Assembly: GCA_944362615.1 (NCBI GenBank)
Contig: CALVTM010000001.1
Coordinates: 186,001 to 250,000, forward strand
Reading direction: 5' to 3'
DNA: 64,000 nucleotides
Source of the DNA: an uncultured Clostridia bacterium
Lineage (GTDB): Bacteria; Bacillota; Clostridia; Christensenellales; Pumilibacteraceae
The notes under the pieces were generated by a model. It had not been told where the DNA came from. It worked only from the letters and a program-made list of their open reading frames with translations, and made no database searches. The position numbers and the translations under genes are program-made. This document shows, piece by piece, positions 47,945 to 57,462 of this stretch (its first letter is position 1; every line of letters begins with the position of its first letter).

Positions 47945-48424
47945 TTACTTGATATTGTTTTTATCGCCGTTTAATGGCGCGCCGCACTTAGTGCAGTAGT
48001 CGCCGTCGCAGGGCACGAATGCGCCGCAGTTCTCACACGTTCTGCGCAAGCTCTTTCCGCACTTCTTGCAGAAATAGCTGTCTGCCGAATTGACCTCGCC
48101 GCACGTACATGTTATCGAGGCTTTGACGTTGCATGCAGAAGTCGTCTCTCTGCTTCCCGTATTGTCAAGCGACGCGAATTCATTGAACTGTTCGGAAATT
48201 ACGTACCTGACAACCTCGCGCTGAAAGCTAAATACAAACAGGAATACTCCGACAATTATAATAGGTATTCCGACAAACATTATATACCAAAGCGGACTGC
48301 CGTCTCTGACAAGTATTGCGCCGGCAACGGTCAGGGCTATGCCGAAAAGCAGGAGCAATAATCCGCATATGCGCAATATGGTTTTAGCGTGCGGCGACCC
48401 GCCGCCTTTTTTGTTTTTTGACAT
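47945..48424 (-). CDS. Membrane protein with C-terminal zinc ribbons
   Basis: 159 residues. A short basic N-terminus, two hydrophobic helices (about 17-37 and 45-67), then a soluble tail with double zinc-ribbon pairs: CTCGEVNSADSYFCKKCG and CENCGAFVPCDGDYCTKCG. The family is not one I can name; it resembles many Clostridia two-helix zinc-ribbon proteins. I start at 48424 because MSKNKKGGG follows a weak AAGG site; the frame runs open another 69 codons through the promoter. The tail probably lies in the cytosol. Confidence 0.7.
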   Translation of the reverse strand: MSKNKKGGGSPHAKTILRICGLLLLLFGIALTVAGAILVRDGSPLWYIMFVGIPIIIVGVFLFVFSFQREVVRYVISEQFNEFASLDNTGSRETTSACNVKASITCTCGEVNSADSYFCKKCGKSLRRTCENCGAFVPCDGDYCTKCGAPLNGDKNNIK

Positions 48425-48464
48425 ATATATTACCTTATTTGTTCCCTTTTGATTGTATGCCGAT

Positions 48465-48493
48465 ATGTTAGCACAATTACGCGGATTTGTCAA
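48465..48493 (-). promoter_or_regulatory. Promoter of the zinc-ribbon membrane protein gene
   Basis: Minus strand TTGACA (48493-48488), a 17-bp spacer and TAACAT (48470-48465). Confidence 0.5.
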
Positions 48494-48503
48494 ACACATT
48501 CCC

Positions 48504-48517
48504 TTTAAGTTGCGCGG
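48504..48517. repeat. 14-bp direct repeat, left copy
   Basis: TTTAAGTTGCGCGG occurs here and again, in the same orientation, at 56973-56986, so the two copies enclose the SipW/TasA-like operon. A 12-bp part also occurs at 15781-15792 inside the murG/typA terminator. Confidence 0.5.
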
Positions 48518-48678
48518 CGTTTTCACTTCCGTGCGTCCGCACAGTGAAACGCAGTATATTTTTACGATGAAACACCGCGCTGCGTAATATGCCGCGCTGC
48601 GTAATAAATACGGCGCCTGCGGGTACGACAAATGTCTGCCCCTCAGGCGCCAAGAGTGGAAGGCTGATAAAATAATTG

Positions 48679-52203: not shown

Positions 52204-53589
52204 TTACGCATTAGCACCGGGCACTTCTGACGACTGAACGAACAGCACGTTGAGACGGGTCGTGTAACCCTTGCCCAGCGCCTTGGCAATCATATAATCA
52301 TTTTCCTGCGAGTCGAAAGACGAGCGGCGCGGGTCTTCCGTCACGCCTTCAAGCGAGACATAGCCGCTATTACCGCCATTGGCGCAGGTGCAATACAAAC
52401 TCTGCGCGTCATCTGCGGTCGTCGGCGCGTCTGCCGAATTGTATGAACCGCTCGAGAACTTATAATAATTTTCCATGGCGTGGACGATCGTCGCCGCGTT
52501 CTCGGACAGCGGCGCGACGTGCTCGAAAGTCAGCGAGCCGCCCAACGTTTTGCTTATGCGCACCGTCGTCGTCTTGCCAGTGGGACTGCCGGATGCGTCA
52601 TAGAGCGGCTGCTCGCGGTCGTAATGATAGCCGGTGATCGTCACGCCATTGCGATTGACCGGTTCGGTCGCGCCGAAGATATTGTTCCAATCGGCGTCGG
52701 TGATAGTCCGGTCGAAATCCGAGCTTACTATTTTTTTAACGGAAGTTACGAAAAGGACAAAAGTCTTTTCCGTCTGGCTGCCGCCGGGAAGCGACATTTC
52801 GGGAAGGGAGATATCCACGGTCAGATAGTTCTCTTGCTTTTCGCAGTCGAGATAGAGCTGCGGCTCCAAGTCTTTGATTATGGTTTCGCCGCCGACGGTT
52901 ATCGGCGTGCCGCGCATGAAGCCCACGGAATAGCGCGTCGTGCCCGTCTCGCGCGACAGAGTAACCGTGCCCTCGCCGCCGGGGCGCTCCGCGATTACCG
53001 CTACGGATGAAGAACGGGACAACGTAAGGATCTCGTCCATGGGTGAGGAAAGCCCGTCGGTGCGGTCGTTGTAATCCCTCGAATCCATTGTGTTGAATGT
53101 TCCCTTGTCGGCTGCACGCCAAATGTCTTTCAGAACATACTGCGGAGTGAGCACGACGGGGTTTGAGCCGTTCATCTCCGCTACCTGCACGGCGAGATTT
53201 TCGGCAAACTCTAAGGGAGCGTAAAACCTGATCGCCCCGTCAAGATCGACAGCGCTGACGCGGTCGGCTCCGCCGCTTGCCGCGCTCGAATCGCTCACGC
53301 TGTAATTACGCATGACAAAACGCACGCTGCGCGCGGTGTTGCGCGGCGCGGAATCGGAAATTATGTTTCCGTTTTCGTCAGTCTGCCAATAATCCATGTT
53401 GGAAAACGTCAGCGACGACATATCTTCTATTTCGTAAGAGCAGTACAGACCCGCGATATTCACGTCTCCGCTGACGTTCGACGAACTCGAATAGCGCGCG
53501 AGAGATACGCCCGTAAGCAGTATGCCTATGAGAATAAAACAGCACAAATAAACCGATATGTGATAGCTTTCAGCCGTCTTTTTTGCCAT
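52204..53589 (-). CDS. TasA-like secreted or anchored protein with SipW-type signal
   Basis: 461 residues. The N-terminal helix (about 10-32) ends in GVSLARYSSSS, the G-x-x-L-A-R/Y-Y/F-x-S pattern cleaved by SipW in TasA-type proteins. A beta-rich body follows, with an N-terminal SGDVNIAGLYCSYEIEDMSS resembling the first strands of TasA. I see no catalytic motif and no cell-wall anchor. It follows sipW-1 (overlap 20 bp) and precedes the beta-helix gene. I start at ATG 53589 because MAKKTAESYH begins just after GAGAGGGAACGGG; the longer frame overlaps sipW-1. The role is inferred as a matrix or fibre subunit. Confidence 0.7.
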   Translation of the reverse strand: MAKKTAESYHISVYLCCFILIGILLTGVSLARYSSSSNVSGDVNIAGLYCSYEIEDMSSLTFSNMDYWQTDENGNIISDSAPRNTARSVRFVMRNYSVSDSSAASGGADRVSAVDLDGAIRFYAPLEFAENLAVQVAEMNGSNPVVLTPQYVLKDIWRAADKGTFNTMDSRDYNDRTDGLSSPMDEILTLSRSSSVAVIAERPGGEGTVTLSRETGTTRYSVGFMRGTPITVGGETIIKDLEPQLYLDCEKQENYLTVDISLPEMSLPGGSQTEKTFVLFVTSVKKIVSSDFDRTITDADWNNIFGATEPVNRNGVTITGYHYDREQPLYDASGSPTGKTTTVRISKTLGGSLTFEHVAPLSENAATIVHAMENYYKFSSGSYNSADAPTTADDAQSLYCTCANGGNSGYVSLEGVTEDPRRSSFDSQENDYMIAKALGKGYTTRLNVLFVQSSEVPGANA

Positions 53590-54196
53590 TTCCCGTTCCC
53601 TCTCCGGAGCTGCCTGAAGTACCGTCCGCTCCGCCGTTATCTTCTCCGTGCGGGCGGAAAATAAGTCTCGGCAGGTATTCGGCAGCCGCCCACACGCCGA
53701 CACACACCGCCAGCGCCGTCATAAGCCCCGCCGGACTGCGCAGAAAGGAAATAAGATTTCCCAGTCCGTTCGCAACCGCGACGACTTTGCCGACGATCAT
53801 GTCGTTCGTTACTGTAATATTATCCTGAATGTTGTTAGCGTCCCCACGGGTGACGTAACCGCTTTCCGCCTTATAGATTATGCGGTGGGTTATATATTCC
53901 CCGACGGACGCGTTGTAATACGTCACAATGTCGCGCTCGGTATAATCGCTCTGCGCCTTTATGACGATGAAATCGCCTTTCTCGATCTCGGGAGACATGC
54001 TGCCCGACGTGACGGACGCAAAAGCGTACCCGAAAACCGTGGGCATTCCGACCCCGAACGCATAGCGCGCAATGAGGACGTAAATGTTATAAACAAGCAG
54101 CAGACCCGCAAGAACGGTCACAATAACTTTGAACGTTATGCCCGTTATTTTAAGCGCCTTGCGCGCGCTGCCGTGATTGTCGTTTTTATTCGCCAT
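53570..54196 (-). CDS. sipW: Signal peptidase I, SipW/ER type (first of two)
   Basis: 208 residues. An N-terminal helix (about 15-37), the catalytic Ser in TSGSMSPEIEKGDFIVI, then ITHRII with His in place of the bacterial Lys, and the conserved RGDANN Asp segment. A C-terminal helix (about 150-170) ends the fold. The Ser-His dyad is that of SipW, archaeal and ER signal peptidases, which in Bacillus processes TasA and TapA. Its ATG shares one base with the stop of the preceding gene (TAATGG). It is one of two such enzymes in this operon. Confidence 0.9.
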   Translation of the reverse strand: MANKNDNHGSARKALKITGITFKVIVTVLAGLLLVYNIYVLIARYAFGVGMPTVFGYAFASVTSGSMSPEIEKGDFIVIKAQSDYTERDIVTYYNASVGEYITHRIIYKAESGYVTRGDANNIQDNITVTNDMIVGKVVAVANGLGNLISFLRSPAGLMTALAVCVGVWAAAEYLPRLIFRPHGEDNGGADGTSGSSGEGTGNGKKDG

Positions 54197-54990
54197 TACC
54201 GGGCAAGAATCTCCGCCGTCACCGAAATGTGAATGGTGTAATCGACTGCCGCTATGCCCGCGGCGGTATCGGTTTCGTCGTCTCCGACATAAGGCCAGTT
54301 CCAGGAAAGAACGAACGTCGTGGACGAACCGGCGTTTATCGTAAGGTCGCTTATGCCGAGTTCTTCGATCGGCTTGCGCTCTTCTCCGGATATCTCGGAG
54401 CCGTCGCGCTGCAATCCGTATACTATTCCTATGTCGTATTCGCATTCCTCTGCAAACTCAAAGGAAAATACGACGTCGTCATCGTTGGCGTTCTCCACGC
54501 TGAAACGATATTCTCCGCTTGTTCCCGGCGCGATCTTGCCGTCCGGGCGTTCGCTTTCGAATATCGGCAGATTTTCCGTCTCCGACCAGTCCGCGCCGTC
54601 GGCGCCGAATACGAATATCGTCGGAATATACGGCTCTCCGCTGCGGTTGAGCGAACAGGTAACGATGAAAAGAGTGAGCGCGGCAATCGCAAGCAGACAA
54701 AGCAAAATCATGACAAGCGGATACAGACGGCGCTTTACGAGCGTCGCTACATACATTCCCTCGCCATTTACGATATTGCCGTGCACGTCGAGATAGCCTA
54801 TGTCTTTATCGTCGCTGCGAAGTAATATACCCCGATCGTCACGGATAAACTCGCCGAGTTCCGTGCCGTCGTAGTCCACCCACTTGCCGTTGCGGACAAG
54901 GCCTATTCCCTCTTTGTTCCCGTCATATACCCTTGCCCTGGCGGGAAGCTTGGGCTCGGGATAACGATTTTCTTCCTGTTTTTCCGTCAT
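54196..54990 (-). CDS. Membrane protein: KWG-like cytosolic repeats, one helix, TasA/camelysin-like external domain
   Basis: 264 residues. The N-terminal cytosolic part (20-80) has two copies of a G-x-x-L-V-x-N/D-G-K/D-W/I-x-Y-x-G pattern, like KWG-type beta repeats. One helix (about 90-112) follows. The external domain starts PDGKIAPGTSGEYRFSVEN and ends with LSWNWPYVGDDETDT, which matches the TasA/CalY pattern of a PGTSG start and a W-x-W-P-Y-x-x-x-x-D-T core. Here that domain sits behind an uncleaved helix, so it may be a membrane-bound anchor or template for the fibre. I chose ATG 54990 with GGGGG upstream. Confidence 0.7.
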   Translation of the reverse strand: MTEKQEENRYPEPKLPARARVYDGNKEGIGLVRNGKWVDYDGTELGEFIRDDRGILLRSDDKDIGYLDVHGNIVNGEGMYVATLVKRRLYPLVMILLCLLAIAALTLFIVTCSLNRSGEPYIPTIFVFGADGADWSETENLPIFESERPDGKIAPGTSGEYRFSVENANDDDVVFSFEFAEECEYDIGIVYGLQRDGSEISGEERKPIEELGISDLTINAGSSTTFVLSWNWPYVGDDETDTAAGIAAVDYTIHISVTAEILAR

Positions 54991-55237: not shown

Positions 55238-55936
55238 TCAGGTCGTGGGTAGCTCGGAGCCCTGAACGGCGCTGAATGTAAGCGTAAACTGAATGCCGCT
55301 GATGTGCGTACCAACCCAGGTATCAAGCGCGTCGGCATTGCCTTTAAGCAAAACGTCCGCAGAAGTCCAGGTAACGACCGCATAGATATAAAGGTTTTCA
55401 CCGCGTTGAAGCTCTATGGCAGTTGCTCCTTTAATCTCAGTGACGCTGTCGGACGGCCTACCGGTTTTGTTGTAGTAAAGCGTTACGCTGAAAAGGTCTG
55501 CGACGTCCTTCTGCGACGGTGCGCCTTCCTGGCTTACTTCCGTCCATTTGTTTTGATCCGCGCCGATCGTAGTATCGAAGTTTCTCGTATCCTCTTCGCT
55601 GAACGTAATCGCGCCTGCGGTTACCGTTACGTCCGCTACGACATCTGTATCGTTGCTGGATATCGTCGCGACATGTGTCTTTGCGCTTTCTTTCGATCTT
55701 ACTTCACCGCCATCGGTATATTCCTTCTCGGACGGAGAAATCATGCCGAAATCGACGACCGTGGAGGTAGAGCCCACGTCAAAAGACACATTCCACTTCG
55801 CGACCTGGACAGTGCCGCTGCCGGAAGCGCCGGAAGCATAACGAGCGAGAGTGGTTCCCACAAAGCAAAGACTGAGCACTGCCGCGATAACGAGAGCGAA
55901 TATCAGTTTGGAAACTATTCTTCTCTTCTTTTCCAT
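55238..55936 (-). CDS. TasA/camelysin-like major secreted protein
   Basis: 232 residues. The SipW-type signal ends in FVGTTLARYASGASGSG. A beta-rich mature part follows: VAKWNVSFDVGS, then GAITFSEED and LYIYAVVTWTSADVLL, with no Cys residues. Size, signal and context match TasA/CalY proteins that form amyloid-like biofilm fibres in Bacillus; here the function is inferred. The start has AGGAGG 5 nt upstream, one of the strongest in the window, and a set of stable hairpins follows the stop, both consistent with high expression. It lies 92 bp after sipW-2. Alternative: a pilin-like protein of unrelated origin. Confidence 0.75.
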   Translation of the reverse strand: MEKKRRIVSKLIFALVIAAVLSLCFVGTTLARYASGASGSGTVQVAKWNVSFDVGSTSTVVDFGMISPSEKEYTDGGEVRSKESAKTHVATISSNDTDVVADVTVTAGAITFSEEDTRNFDTTIGADQNKWTEVSQEGAPSQKDVADLFSVTLYYNKTGRPSDSVTEIKGATAIELQRGENLYIYAVVTWTSADVLLKGNADALDTWVGTHISGIQFTLTFSAVQGSELPTT

Positions 55937-56028: not shown

Positions 56029-56778
56029 TTATTCTTTTTCCGCTGTTTCGGCGGCGGAGCCGTCATCGGTCGCGCCGCTTTCGGAAGAGTCCGCCTCTTC
56101 GGCAGCGCTTTCTTTATCCTCTGACAAAGCGTTTTCAGCCGGAGCGGCGTTCTTTTCCTCAAGAAGAGTGCGCAGTCGGCGGATCTCCTCGTCCTTATCC
56201 GTTTCGGAAGGCGCTTCGTCCTTAGCCTTGCGGCGGGCAAGCGTTATGCGGATCACGTCGTAAGCGATATACGCCGCGACGGGTACGCCCACGAGCACGA
56301 GAATGCCGACGGGCGTTTGCAGGAACATCGAAAAACTTCCCAGTCCGCCGATACTGCCCACGCACATGCCGACTACGTTTTCAACGGGAATCGCTCCGTC
56401 AGAAATGTTGTTCGCGTCGCCCTTGGTCTCCACCGAGACAACGGCTCCGTCGGACAAAGTCATGTCTATTATGCGGTGCGTGACGAACATACCGTCGGTG
56501 CGGTATGTCACTATATCGCCCTTTTCAAGCTGCTGCTTGTCCTCGTCGCCGAGAATTTTGACAAATATCAGCGAGCCGTCGGCAAAACTGTCGTCCGCTT
56601 CGCCGTCCATCGATCCCGTTGCCACAGCCATCGGCGCAATGCCGAATACGCTGGGCGGCACGTCGCTGCGCACTGCGCCCTTTATGATAAGCGTAAGGTT
56701 TATCACAATGACGGGAATAAGCAGCACCGCAAGAACGATGAGAACTATCATCGCTGCCGTATCTCTTTTTGTTCGCAT
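56029..56778 (-). CDS. sipW: Signal peptidase I, SipW/ER type (second, operon-leading)
   Basis: 249 residues. N-terminal helix (about 10-33), catalytic Ser in VATGSMDGEADDS, FVTHRIIDM with the His, and TKGDANNISDG. A second helix (about 145-165) is followed by an acidic, Glu/Ala-rich tail with a short coiled-coil (EEIRRLRTLLEEK). That tail is not part of normal SipW. It is the first gene of the operon and has its own promoter with a poly-G spacer. It differs clearly in sequence from the other copy, so the two may serve different substrates. Confidence 0.85.
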   Translation of the reverse strand: MRTKRDTAAMIVLIVLAVLLIPVIVINLTLIIKGAVRSDVPPSVFGIAPMAVATGSMDGEADDSFADGSLIFVKILGDEDKQQLEKGDIVTYRTDGMFVTHRIIDMTLSDGAVVSVETKGDANNISDGAIPVENVVGMCVGSIGGLGSFSMFLQTPVGILVLVGVPVAAYIAYDVIRITLARRKAKDEAPSETDKDEEIRRLRTLLEEKNAAPAENALSEDKESAAEEADSSESGATDDGSAAETAEKE

Positions 56779-56797
56779 TTTCCTTCTCCCACTCCGT

Positions 56798-56815
56798 TAA
56801 TGATTACAATCATTA
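56798..56815 (-). promoter_or_regulatory. Palindrome in the sipW-2 leader
   Basis: TAATGATT-AC-AATCATTA has 8-bp arms, between the -10 box and the ribosome site. It could bind a regulator. Confidence 0.45.
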
Positions 56816-56824
56816 TTGTATTAT

Positions 56825-56854
56825 AATATAACATACTACCCCCCCCCATGTCAA
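56825..56854 (-). promoter_or_regulatory. Promoter of the SipW/TasA-like operon with a nine-G spacer tract
   Basis: Minus strand TTGACA (56854-56849), then T and nine G (56847-56839), and TATATT (56830-56825) at 18-bp spacing. Losing one G gives the optimal 17 bp. A second hexamer, TATAAT, lies at 56820-56825 (23-bp spacing). An inverted repeat, TGTCAA/TTGACA, overlaps the -35 box (56849-56865). Confidence 0.6.
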
Positions 56855-56972
56855 TACCTTTGACAGTATTTTTCTGTAAATTCACGGAAAATACGTTTTA
56901 TCCCGCATTTCGGTGACAAAATCGGACAGATATGTGCGCTTTTTTGCCTAAACATAACCCACTCGGCAGTCG

Positions 56973-56986
56973 TTTAAGTTGCGCGG
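56973..56986. repeat. 14-bp direct repeat, right copy
   Basis: TTTAAGTTGCGCGG, identical to 48504-48517. It lies between the operon promoter and tRNA-Leu. Confidence 0.5.
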
Positions 56987-57025
56987 TGCTTAAAAAGGCC
57001 GCGCAGCTTTATGGAGCTGAGCGAC

Positions 57026-57147
57026 CCGAGGTTTCCCTGCGGGAAACTCGGTTCGCACCTCAGATCAGCGGCGACAAAAAGCGCACGACCCCTTGCGGGT
57101 CGTGCGCGTCGGTCGGGGTAACAAGCGTTCTTCTTTGAACGCTTGTT
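57026..57147 (-). other. Hairpin cluster between the surface operon and tRNA-Leu; possible small RNA with terminator
   Basis: Three strong hairpins lie in 120 bp: GTTTCCC/GGGAAAC (57031-57047), GCGCACGACCC/GGGTCGTGCGC (57081-57107) and AACAAGCGTTC/GAACGCTTGTT (57120-57147). The middle one has TTTTT after it on the minus strand, so it is a terminator, although no minus-strand gene but the tRNA lies upstream. The rest of 56855-57260 has no gene I can support; its open frames are shadows. Confidence 0.45.
57076..57107 (-). terminator. Minus-strand terminator in the hairpin cluster
   Basis: An 11-bp perfect stem with loop CTTGC and a T5 run on the minus strand. It is either a second stop for the tRNA-Leu transcript or the end of a small RNA between 57108 and 57260. 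Confidence 0.6.
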
Positions 57148-57260
57148 GGCGTTCGCCGCCCTTTCAGGACGGCTCGGCTGAGCGAACTTTCGCGCGTCCG
57201 TTTTTCTGCGCTTTCGTCGCTCGTGCTTCGCGCTCACGGTTCAACGTCGCCAACGTGCAC

Positions 57261-57303
57261 AAAACAAAAAACGCAACACCCTTTCGGGGTCGCGTTTTTT
57301 GTT
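57261..57303 (-). terminator. Terminator after tRNA-Leu
   Basis: AAAACAAAAAACGC pairs with GCGTTTTTTGTTTT around a GGGGT/CACCC inner stem, directly after the tRNA 3' end. Confidence 0.8.
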
Positions 57304-57304
57304 T

Positions 57305-57391
57305 TGGTGCCGCCGGTCGGGGTCGAACCGACACGGTATCACTACCACCGGATTTTGAGTCCGGCGCGTCTGCCAATTTCACCACGGCGGC
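57305..57391 (-). tRNA. tRNA-Leu (anticodon CAA)
   Basis: 87 nt on the minus strand. Acceptor GCCGCCG pairs with CGGCGGC, discriminator A and CCA are encoded, the anticodon stem CCGGA/TCCGG has loop CTCAAAA (anticodon CAA), and the long class II variable arm and GGTTCGACCC T-loop are present. It decodes UUG. Confidence 0.95.
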
Positions 57392-57462
57392 AGGTGTGCG
57401 GATACTTGAGCATCCGCACGCTGTCTTATATTATCATAAATCTTTATGCGTGTAAAGCGTTT

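Follow-up and report, generated by a model that had tools for sequence, protein, structure and literature searches.

RESULTS

A nine-G tract in the spacer of an operon promoter

The window analyzed here is a stretch of 64,000 nucleotides from an uncultured Clostridia bacterium (assembly GCA_944362615.1, contig CALVTM010000001.1, positions 186,001 to 250,000). On its minus strand lies a six-gene operon that opens with a gene for a SipW-like signal peptidase (gene 1, sipW) and whose products are predicted to have a surface or fiber role; the promoter in front of it carries an uninterrupted run of nine G between its two boxes (Table 1). Read on the minus strand, this promoter is TTGACA-T-G9-TAGTATGT-TATATT, with a single T at 56848 separating the -35 box from the tract. 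It has an 18-base-pair (bp) spacer and an extended -10 and matched 11 of the 12 promoter positions in a promoter scan; the start of gene 1, at 56778, lies 46 bp downstream. Sequence reading and scan together confirm the arrangement of TTGACA, T, nine G, and TATATT at 18 bp that had been pointed out in an earlier, sequence-only reading of this DNA. Since this is the sole promoter-like site on the minus strand within 56600-57450, and since a terminator-like hairpin and a same-strand tRNA-Leu gene lie upstream, transcription of all six genes most likely depends on it, as far as the sequence allows us to judge.

The nine-G tract is the longest G or C run in the window, where the other runs of at least six are four C6. 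By itself, such a length is unremarkable: two overlapping G8 matches were counted versus 0.77 expected, and at least two occurred in 17 of 100 shuffles. What is noteworthy is the position of the tract in the spacer of a near-perfect promoter and its recurrence in relatives, not its length.

The sequence-only reading had further taken a palindrome and an inverted repeat over the -35 box as signs of an added regulator. Both elements are present. A looser form of the repeat, TGTCA-N2-9-TGACA, lies upstream of 2 of 44 orthologues. Base shuffling gave 0.17 on average and up to 2 in 300 shuffles, and since the shuffled sequences also reach two occurrences, the repeat argues only weakly for a regulator. 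By eye, the palindrome was not seen upstream of the orthologues in genomes G010 and G003. The two occurrences of the looser repeat are at loci L095 and L101, where a TGTCA-N-TGACA inverted repeat upstream of gene 1 resembles the one at the window's -35 box.

Table 1. Features of the promoter region and operon in the window, and C-tract spacers in other genomes of the family
Feature	Position	Strand	Basis or remark
-35 box TTGACA	56849..56854	-	sequence reading and promoter scan
Nine-G tract in promoter spacer, predicted slippage site	56839..56847	-	orthologous tracts G10, G9
TAGTATGT between G9 and -10 box	56831..56838	-	
TG of extended -10, one base before -10	56832..56833	-	promoter scan
-10 box TATATT, 18-bp spacer	56825..56830	-	promoter scan
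Second hexamer TATAAT overlapping TATATT, 23-bp spacer; possible alternative -10	56820..56825	-	
Inverted repeat TGTCAA-N5-TTGACA across -35 box	56849..56865	.	
16-bp palindrome AATGATTACAATCATT, between -10 and start codon	56799..56814	.	
Terminator-like hairpin, between tRNA-Leu gene and promoter	57081..57107	-	
tRNA-Leu gene upstream of promoter	57305-57391	-	
Gene 1, SipW-like (endoplasmic reticulum/archaeal-type) signal peptidase I	56029..56778	-	TIGR02228
Gene 2, predicted secreted, 232 amino acids, N-terminal helix ending TTLARYASG, beta-rich model	55238..55936	-	start by eye
Gene 3, single hydrophobic stretch, judged by eye to be membrane-anchored	54196..54990	-	start by eye
Gene 4, second SipW-like signal peptidase	53570..54196	-	TIGR02228, 73.0 bits, above cutoff
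Gene 5, predicted secreted, GVSLARYSS signal by eye	52204..53589	-	start by eye
Gene 6, glycine-rich, predicted secreted, 1171 amino acids	48679..52194	-	by eye
C-tract spacer C12	G041:C2:13090-13124		flanks TTGACATA ... GTG[CT]TAT
C-tract spacer C9	G053:C10:48267-48293		flanks TTGACATA ... GTG[CT]TAT
C-tract spacer C17	G049:C47:17905-17939		flanks TTGACATA ... GTG[CT]TAT

The tract at orthologous sipW genes

Four other genomes of the genus hold a close gene 1 orthologue (56 to 67% identity), and two of these four carry the tract in the same place. The G010 promoter reads TTGACA-GT-G10 with TATACT at 19 bp, and the G003 promoter reads TTGACA-TC-G9 with either TAAAAT at 16 bp or TATAAT at 21 bp. 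Because some orthologous promoters carry the tract and others a plain spacer, the tract, judged from these sequences, comes and goes at gene 1. The sequence-only reading had named a fixed tract length in deep reads and related genomes as one observation that would refute switching; within the genus, the orthologues have G10, G9, or no tract. No other strain of the window's species turned up among the named genomes.

A wider comparison covered 44 named sipW relatives, in which the genus-mates are Candidatus Protoclostridium and the others include Borkfalkia, Gallimonas, and Coproplasma; loci L095, L100, L101, and L131 were taken as the same assemblies as G010, G003, G006, and G007. A scan without spacing preference gave a tract-free TTGACA match in 22 of the 44; of these, 18 scored highest at 17 bp, two tied between 17 and 22 bp, one was highest at 14 bp, and one tied between 21 and 16 bp. 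In the same scan, the five tract-bearing relatives scored best at 19, 21, 16, 18, and 17 bp; these counts leave out the 17 relatives that have no TTGACA promoter match.

Recurrence of the promoter class within one order

The architecture was sought, with one genome per species, by means of a broad pattern (TTGACA, 0-3 bases, G7, 3-14 bases, TANNNT) and a stricter one (G8, TATANT), each controlled by its reversed form. The broad pattern occurred in 30 of 74 genomes of the family, in 11 of 18 genera, at 76 distinct places (reversed control, two matches). The stricter one was found in 37 of 396 genomes of the order and added 41 places outside the family (control, 0), so that family and order together hold 117 such places including the window's and 116 beyond it. 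To judge by the NCBI lineage of Borkfalkia, the order concerned is probably Christensenellales; Protoclostridium is unplaced within Clostridia in the NCBI lineage. None of 234 sampled genomes from other orders of the class matched the stricter pattern (control, one match), the class sample of 245 yielding two genomes, the window's and one of the same order. A phylum sample gave 4 of 398 genomes including the window's, or 3 of 397 without it (control, 0). The earlier statement that G-run spacers are rare in Firmicutes is therefore true of the phylum sample and untrue within the order.

The number of sites per genome reaches eight of one architecture in G013. Tracts of at least eight G with loose promoter boxes around them are exemplified by L307, L308, L310, L312, L325, and L338, and tracts 4 to 6 bases from TTGACA occur at L308, L337, and L135. 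Several further observations concern the same kind of tract. Small genomes from another family of the order (G391 and G343, family f29; L241-L246) have tracts of G10 to G13, and viral contigs, considered as a possible origin of variants from the same population, gave nine matches. In G003 (Candidatus Protoclostridium gallicola), G9 and G10 tracts lie within long open frames at L313, L320, and L321, those at L309 and L326 lie near frame starts, and L317, L329, and L335 show possible frame breaks at the tract; all of these are candidate translational contingency loci.

Spacing and tract length

In the genus, ordinary TTGACA/TATAAT promoters have a 17-bp spacer in 111 of 148 cases and one of 16 to 18 bp in 138; the window's 18 bp is close to 17. 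The G-tract promoters of the order range from 13 to 22 bp, with 17 bp in 8 of 74 and 16 to 18 bp in 31. The 17-bp shares differ with a Fisher p of about 9e-21 when sites are treated as independent, although paralogues are not. The two sets also differ in taxa: the ordinary promoters are the first places of G003 and G008 (two of 14 genus genomes; one G-tract row was removed and one doubled -10 row omitted), and the G-tract promoters come from the whole order (75 sites minus G021, where TATANT stands at 23 bp and TATTCT at 17). For this set, the -10 was TATATT (18 bp) in the window and TATAAT (21 bp; alternative TAAAAT at 16) in G003. Tract length and the rest of the spacer were uncorrelated over the 74 promoters (r = -0.12, p = 0.32), and the flanks therefore do not compensate for the tract. 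TG before the -10 was present in 42 of 74 G-tract promoters versus 39 of 148 ordinary ones. Slipping tracts, caught at one moment, would be expected to show such uneven spacing.

Lengths also vary between related loci. Two paralogues in G162 with flanks 94-95% identical have G11 and G12; among six lipoprotein-like paralogues in G020, one has G8, one G9, and four G10; and in five congeneric species, the promoters of ATP-binding cassette (ABC) ATPase genes carry G13, G11, G12, G10, and G11, with flanks mostly only 45-54% alike. In G020, the related lipoprotein-like genes (L154-L159), each behind a G8 to G10 promoter, are each cut off by a contig end, and this repeated gene family may break the assembly. 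Spacers with a C-tract instead of a G-tract were found at 11 places in 10 of the 74 family genomes (control, 0); at three of these, which resemble one another closely in their flanks, the tracts are C9, C12, and C17.

Genes behind the G-tract promoters

Signal status was assigned by a home-made rule of hydrophobicity and lipobox to 112 first genes, that is, the 117 sites minus G012:C17 (unconvincing), L207 (no frame), and three sipW sites (in G000, G003, and G010). The comparison set was 40 genes behind 17-bp ordinary promoters, all from G003. First genes were predicted to encode lipoproteins or secreted or membrane proteins in 69 of 112 cases versus 6 of 40 (p about 3e-7); the lipobox rule accounted for 48 of 112 versus 4 of 40, and another signal or a membrane helix for 21 of 112 versus 2 of 40.

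Products of the operon

Gene 1 scored 67.6 bits against TIGR02228, above the cutoff of 51.85, and 82.6 bits against the SipW equivalog NF046067, below the cutoff of 190; a profile built from five gene 1 orthologues matches SEC11 subunits. With respect to the SipW/TasA operon of Bacillus, genes 1 and 4 are above the TIGR02228 cutoff, and the SipW equivalog is matched below its own. Profile searches gave no TasA-type Pfam or NCBIfam match for a TasA-type fiber subunit in the operon. A search with gene 2 listed 30 proteins, itself included, and its predicted structure has a mean predicted local distance difference test score of 71.8; the structure search returned no PDB match at E <= 0.001, with mostly pilins in the top rows, and a TasA-like fold for gene 2, which we had considered, found no significant structure match. 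Beyond the operon, the next gene (window 48465-48493, 47945-48631) reads by eye as a zinc-ribbon membrane protein and has its own TTGACA-17-TAACAT promoter-like site. Zinc-ribbon proteins, again by eye, also stand behind some G-tract promoters (L230, L232, and L233).

DISCUSSION

We propose that the G9 spacer tract is probably a slippage-driven, porA-like transcriptional phase-variation switch of the predicted surface-protein operon. Replication would add or remove a G in the tract, and each change would shift the distance between the -35 and -10 boxes by one base, raising or lowering operon transcription. If the optimum of the polymerase is 17 bp, which is also the usual spacing of ordinary promoters in the genus, transcription would be strongest with G8 (17 bp), lower with G9 (18 bp), the length found in the assembly, and weak with G10 or more. 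The extended -10 would maintain a basal level, favoring graded levels over a clean on/off switch. Comparison across relatives supports this porA-like reading, which the sequence-only reading had advanced, in that the tract occurs at two of the four genus orthologues, lengths and spacing do not cluster at an optimum across the order, and C-tracts stand in the same place.

Several observations weigh against it. The tract is absent from two of the four genus orthologues: the G006 promoter is TTGACA-17 bp-TACATT, and that of G007, also without a tract, has a spacer of 16 or 21 bp. TTGACA with a G-tract lies within 500 bp upstream of only five of the 44 sipW relatives (L095, L100, L127, L135, and L138), and in L127, L135, and L138 the tract is some 280 to 385 bp upstream of the match and therefore perhaps serves a different start. 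The window's genome has a single site of the class, one of its nine tracts of at least eight G, and five of 14 genus genomes have no site by the broad pattern. Of the 40 other tracts of at least eight G that were read (in G000, G003, and G002), only nine are flanked by even a loose -35 and -10. Although length varies uncompensated between related loci and species, equal tracts (G10/G10, G11/G11, and G9/G9) were found in three of the four compared pairs whose flanks are at least 93% identical on either side, and the fourth pair differs; four G171 paralogues are all G9, and the C-tract sites of G014 and G075, with alike flanks, are both C9. No signal was predicted by the simple rule for 43 of the 112 first genes, among them nine ABC_tran, five LytTR response regulators, and two LacI. 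Finally, the window's genome has MutS1, as do 10 of 14 genus genomes with scores above the cutoff, so that the slippage rate may be modest. On the same ground, we rejected lost mismatch repair as the origin of long tracts in the window's genome.

The equal lengths in close pairs would also be expected if the promoter were real and its G-run fixed, as a binding site or stiff DNA for a lineage-specific regulator or polymerase, with no switching. The near confinement of the class to one order and the inverted repeat across the -35 box point the same way. We nevertheless regard this explanation as unlikely: spacing runs from 13 to 22 bp without compensation, tracts also lie 4 to 6 bases from TTGACA, and some orthologous promoters do without a tract. 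The C-tracts in the same place argue against a G-specific binding protein; together with the palindrome unseen by eye in two orthologues and the weak recurrence of the repeat, they led us to place a fixed regulator site lower. A somewhat less probable account holds that the tracts are drifting by-products of mutation and that the extended -10 makes the promoters about equal at all lengths. The greater frequency of TG before the -10 in G-tract promoters fits it, as do the 31 of 40 other tracts that lie outside recognizable promoters; the bias toward predicted lipoprotein and secreted genes and the recurrence in repeated gene families would be unexpected under drift, and since the genus keeps its ordinary promoters at 17 bp, spacing matters in this lineage.

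That the tracts are homopolymer or assembly artifacts of metagenome-assembled genomes is very improbable. Judged by title, the 44 named records do look metagenome-assembled, and exact homopolymer counts are error-prone. Assemblies from different projects, however, agree in showing a tract at orthologous genes in the same position, between the -35 and -10 boxes, the reversed-pattern controls are near empty (0 in the order and the phylum, two in the family, one in the class), and the pattern was absent from the other orders sampled in the class.

To our knowledge, promoter-spacer slippage has been described for few genes of few pathogens. Slippage switching at the window's operon would have a counterpart across the order, where the promoter class precedes genes for predicted lipoproteins and other secreted proteins, ABC ATPases, and LytTR regulators; lineages that hold several promoter copies would therefore spread over many surface states. 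Whether the order uses a shared slippage-prone promoter class as independent random surface switches, a phasome of mostly uncultured commensals, is in our estimate evenly balanced. The class would then comprise TTGACA, a run of 7-17 G or C, and often an extended -10, a definition to which we give the same even standing, and the switched set might as easily as not include the secretion operon of the window besides lipoprotein families, ABC exporters, and LytTR regulators. If true, spacer slippage would recur as a promoter design throughout an order of gut bacteria, in association with predicted surface proteins. Commensals would then generate surface diversity within clones and without recombinases, with consequences for phage resistance, immune recognition, and strain persistence, and a commensal lineage would have a kind of phasome that is known until now mainly from pathogens adapted to a host. 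A tract length taken from one assembly should be read as a snapshot.

The mechanism of spacer slippage is already known; a repeated use of it across one Clostridia order did not appear in the literature searched. That search, with many subscription papers and preprints outside its scope, returned no paper joining phase variation with Borkfalkia or Christensenellales and, mostly by title, none on a G-tract promoter class in Clostridia.

Among known systems, cited here for the excerpts of the papers available to us, the closest is porA of Neisseria meningitidis, in which poly-G spacer variants of 9G, 10G, and 11G alter expression of a surface protein (PMC3639595, PMC7864442). Both promoters have a poly-G between the -35 and -10, that of the window before a predicted surface-protein operon, but porA is one proteobacterial gene whose variants were selected and seen in the laboratory, whereas the window offers a predicted switch of a signal-peptidase-led operon in Clostridia. 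tp0126 of Treponema pallidum likewise has a poly-G between its boxes, with transcription best at a distance of 17 (PMC7864442); this spirochaete promoter was reporter-tested, and the window's is known by comparison alone. The C-tract spacers of the family have a counterpart in fetA (frpB) of Neisseria gonorrhoeae, with a poly-C between -10 and -35 that varies from C10 to C14 across strains (PMC5320596), but here there are up to eight sites per genome (G013), order-wide, yet one in the window's genome. Pilus genes of the gut commensal Bifidobacterium breve undergo intragenic G-tract slippage, in a paper whose excerpt mentions promoter-spacer G-tracts without detail (PMC9187656); there the switch lies inside actinobacterial genes and was measured by deep sequencing. 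Gut Clostridia already provide an example of stochastic promoter switching in the invertible promoters of Clostridioides difficile (PMC11868660), which work by DNA inversion through recombinases instead of tract slippage.
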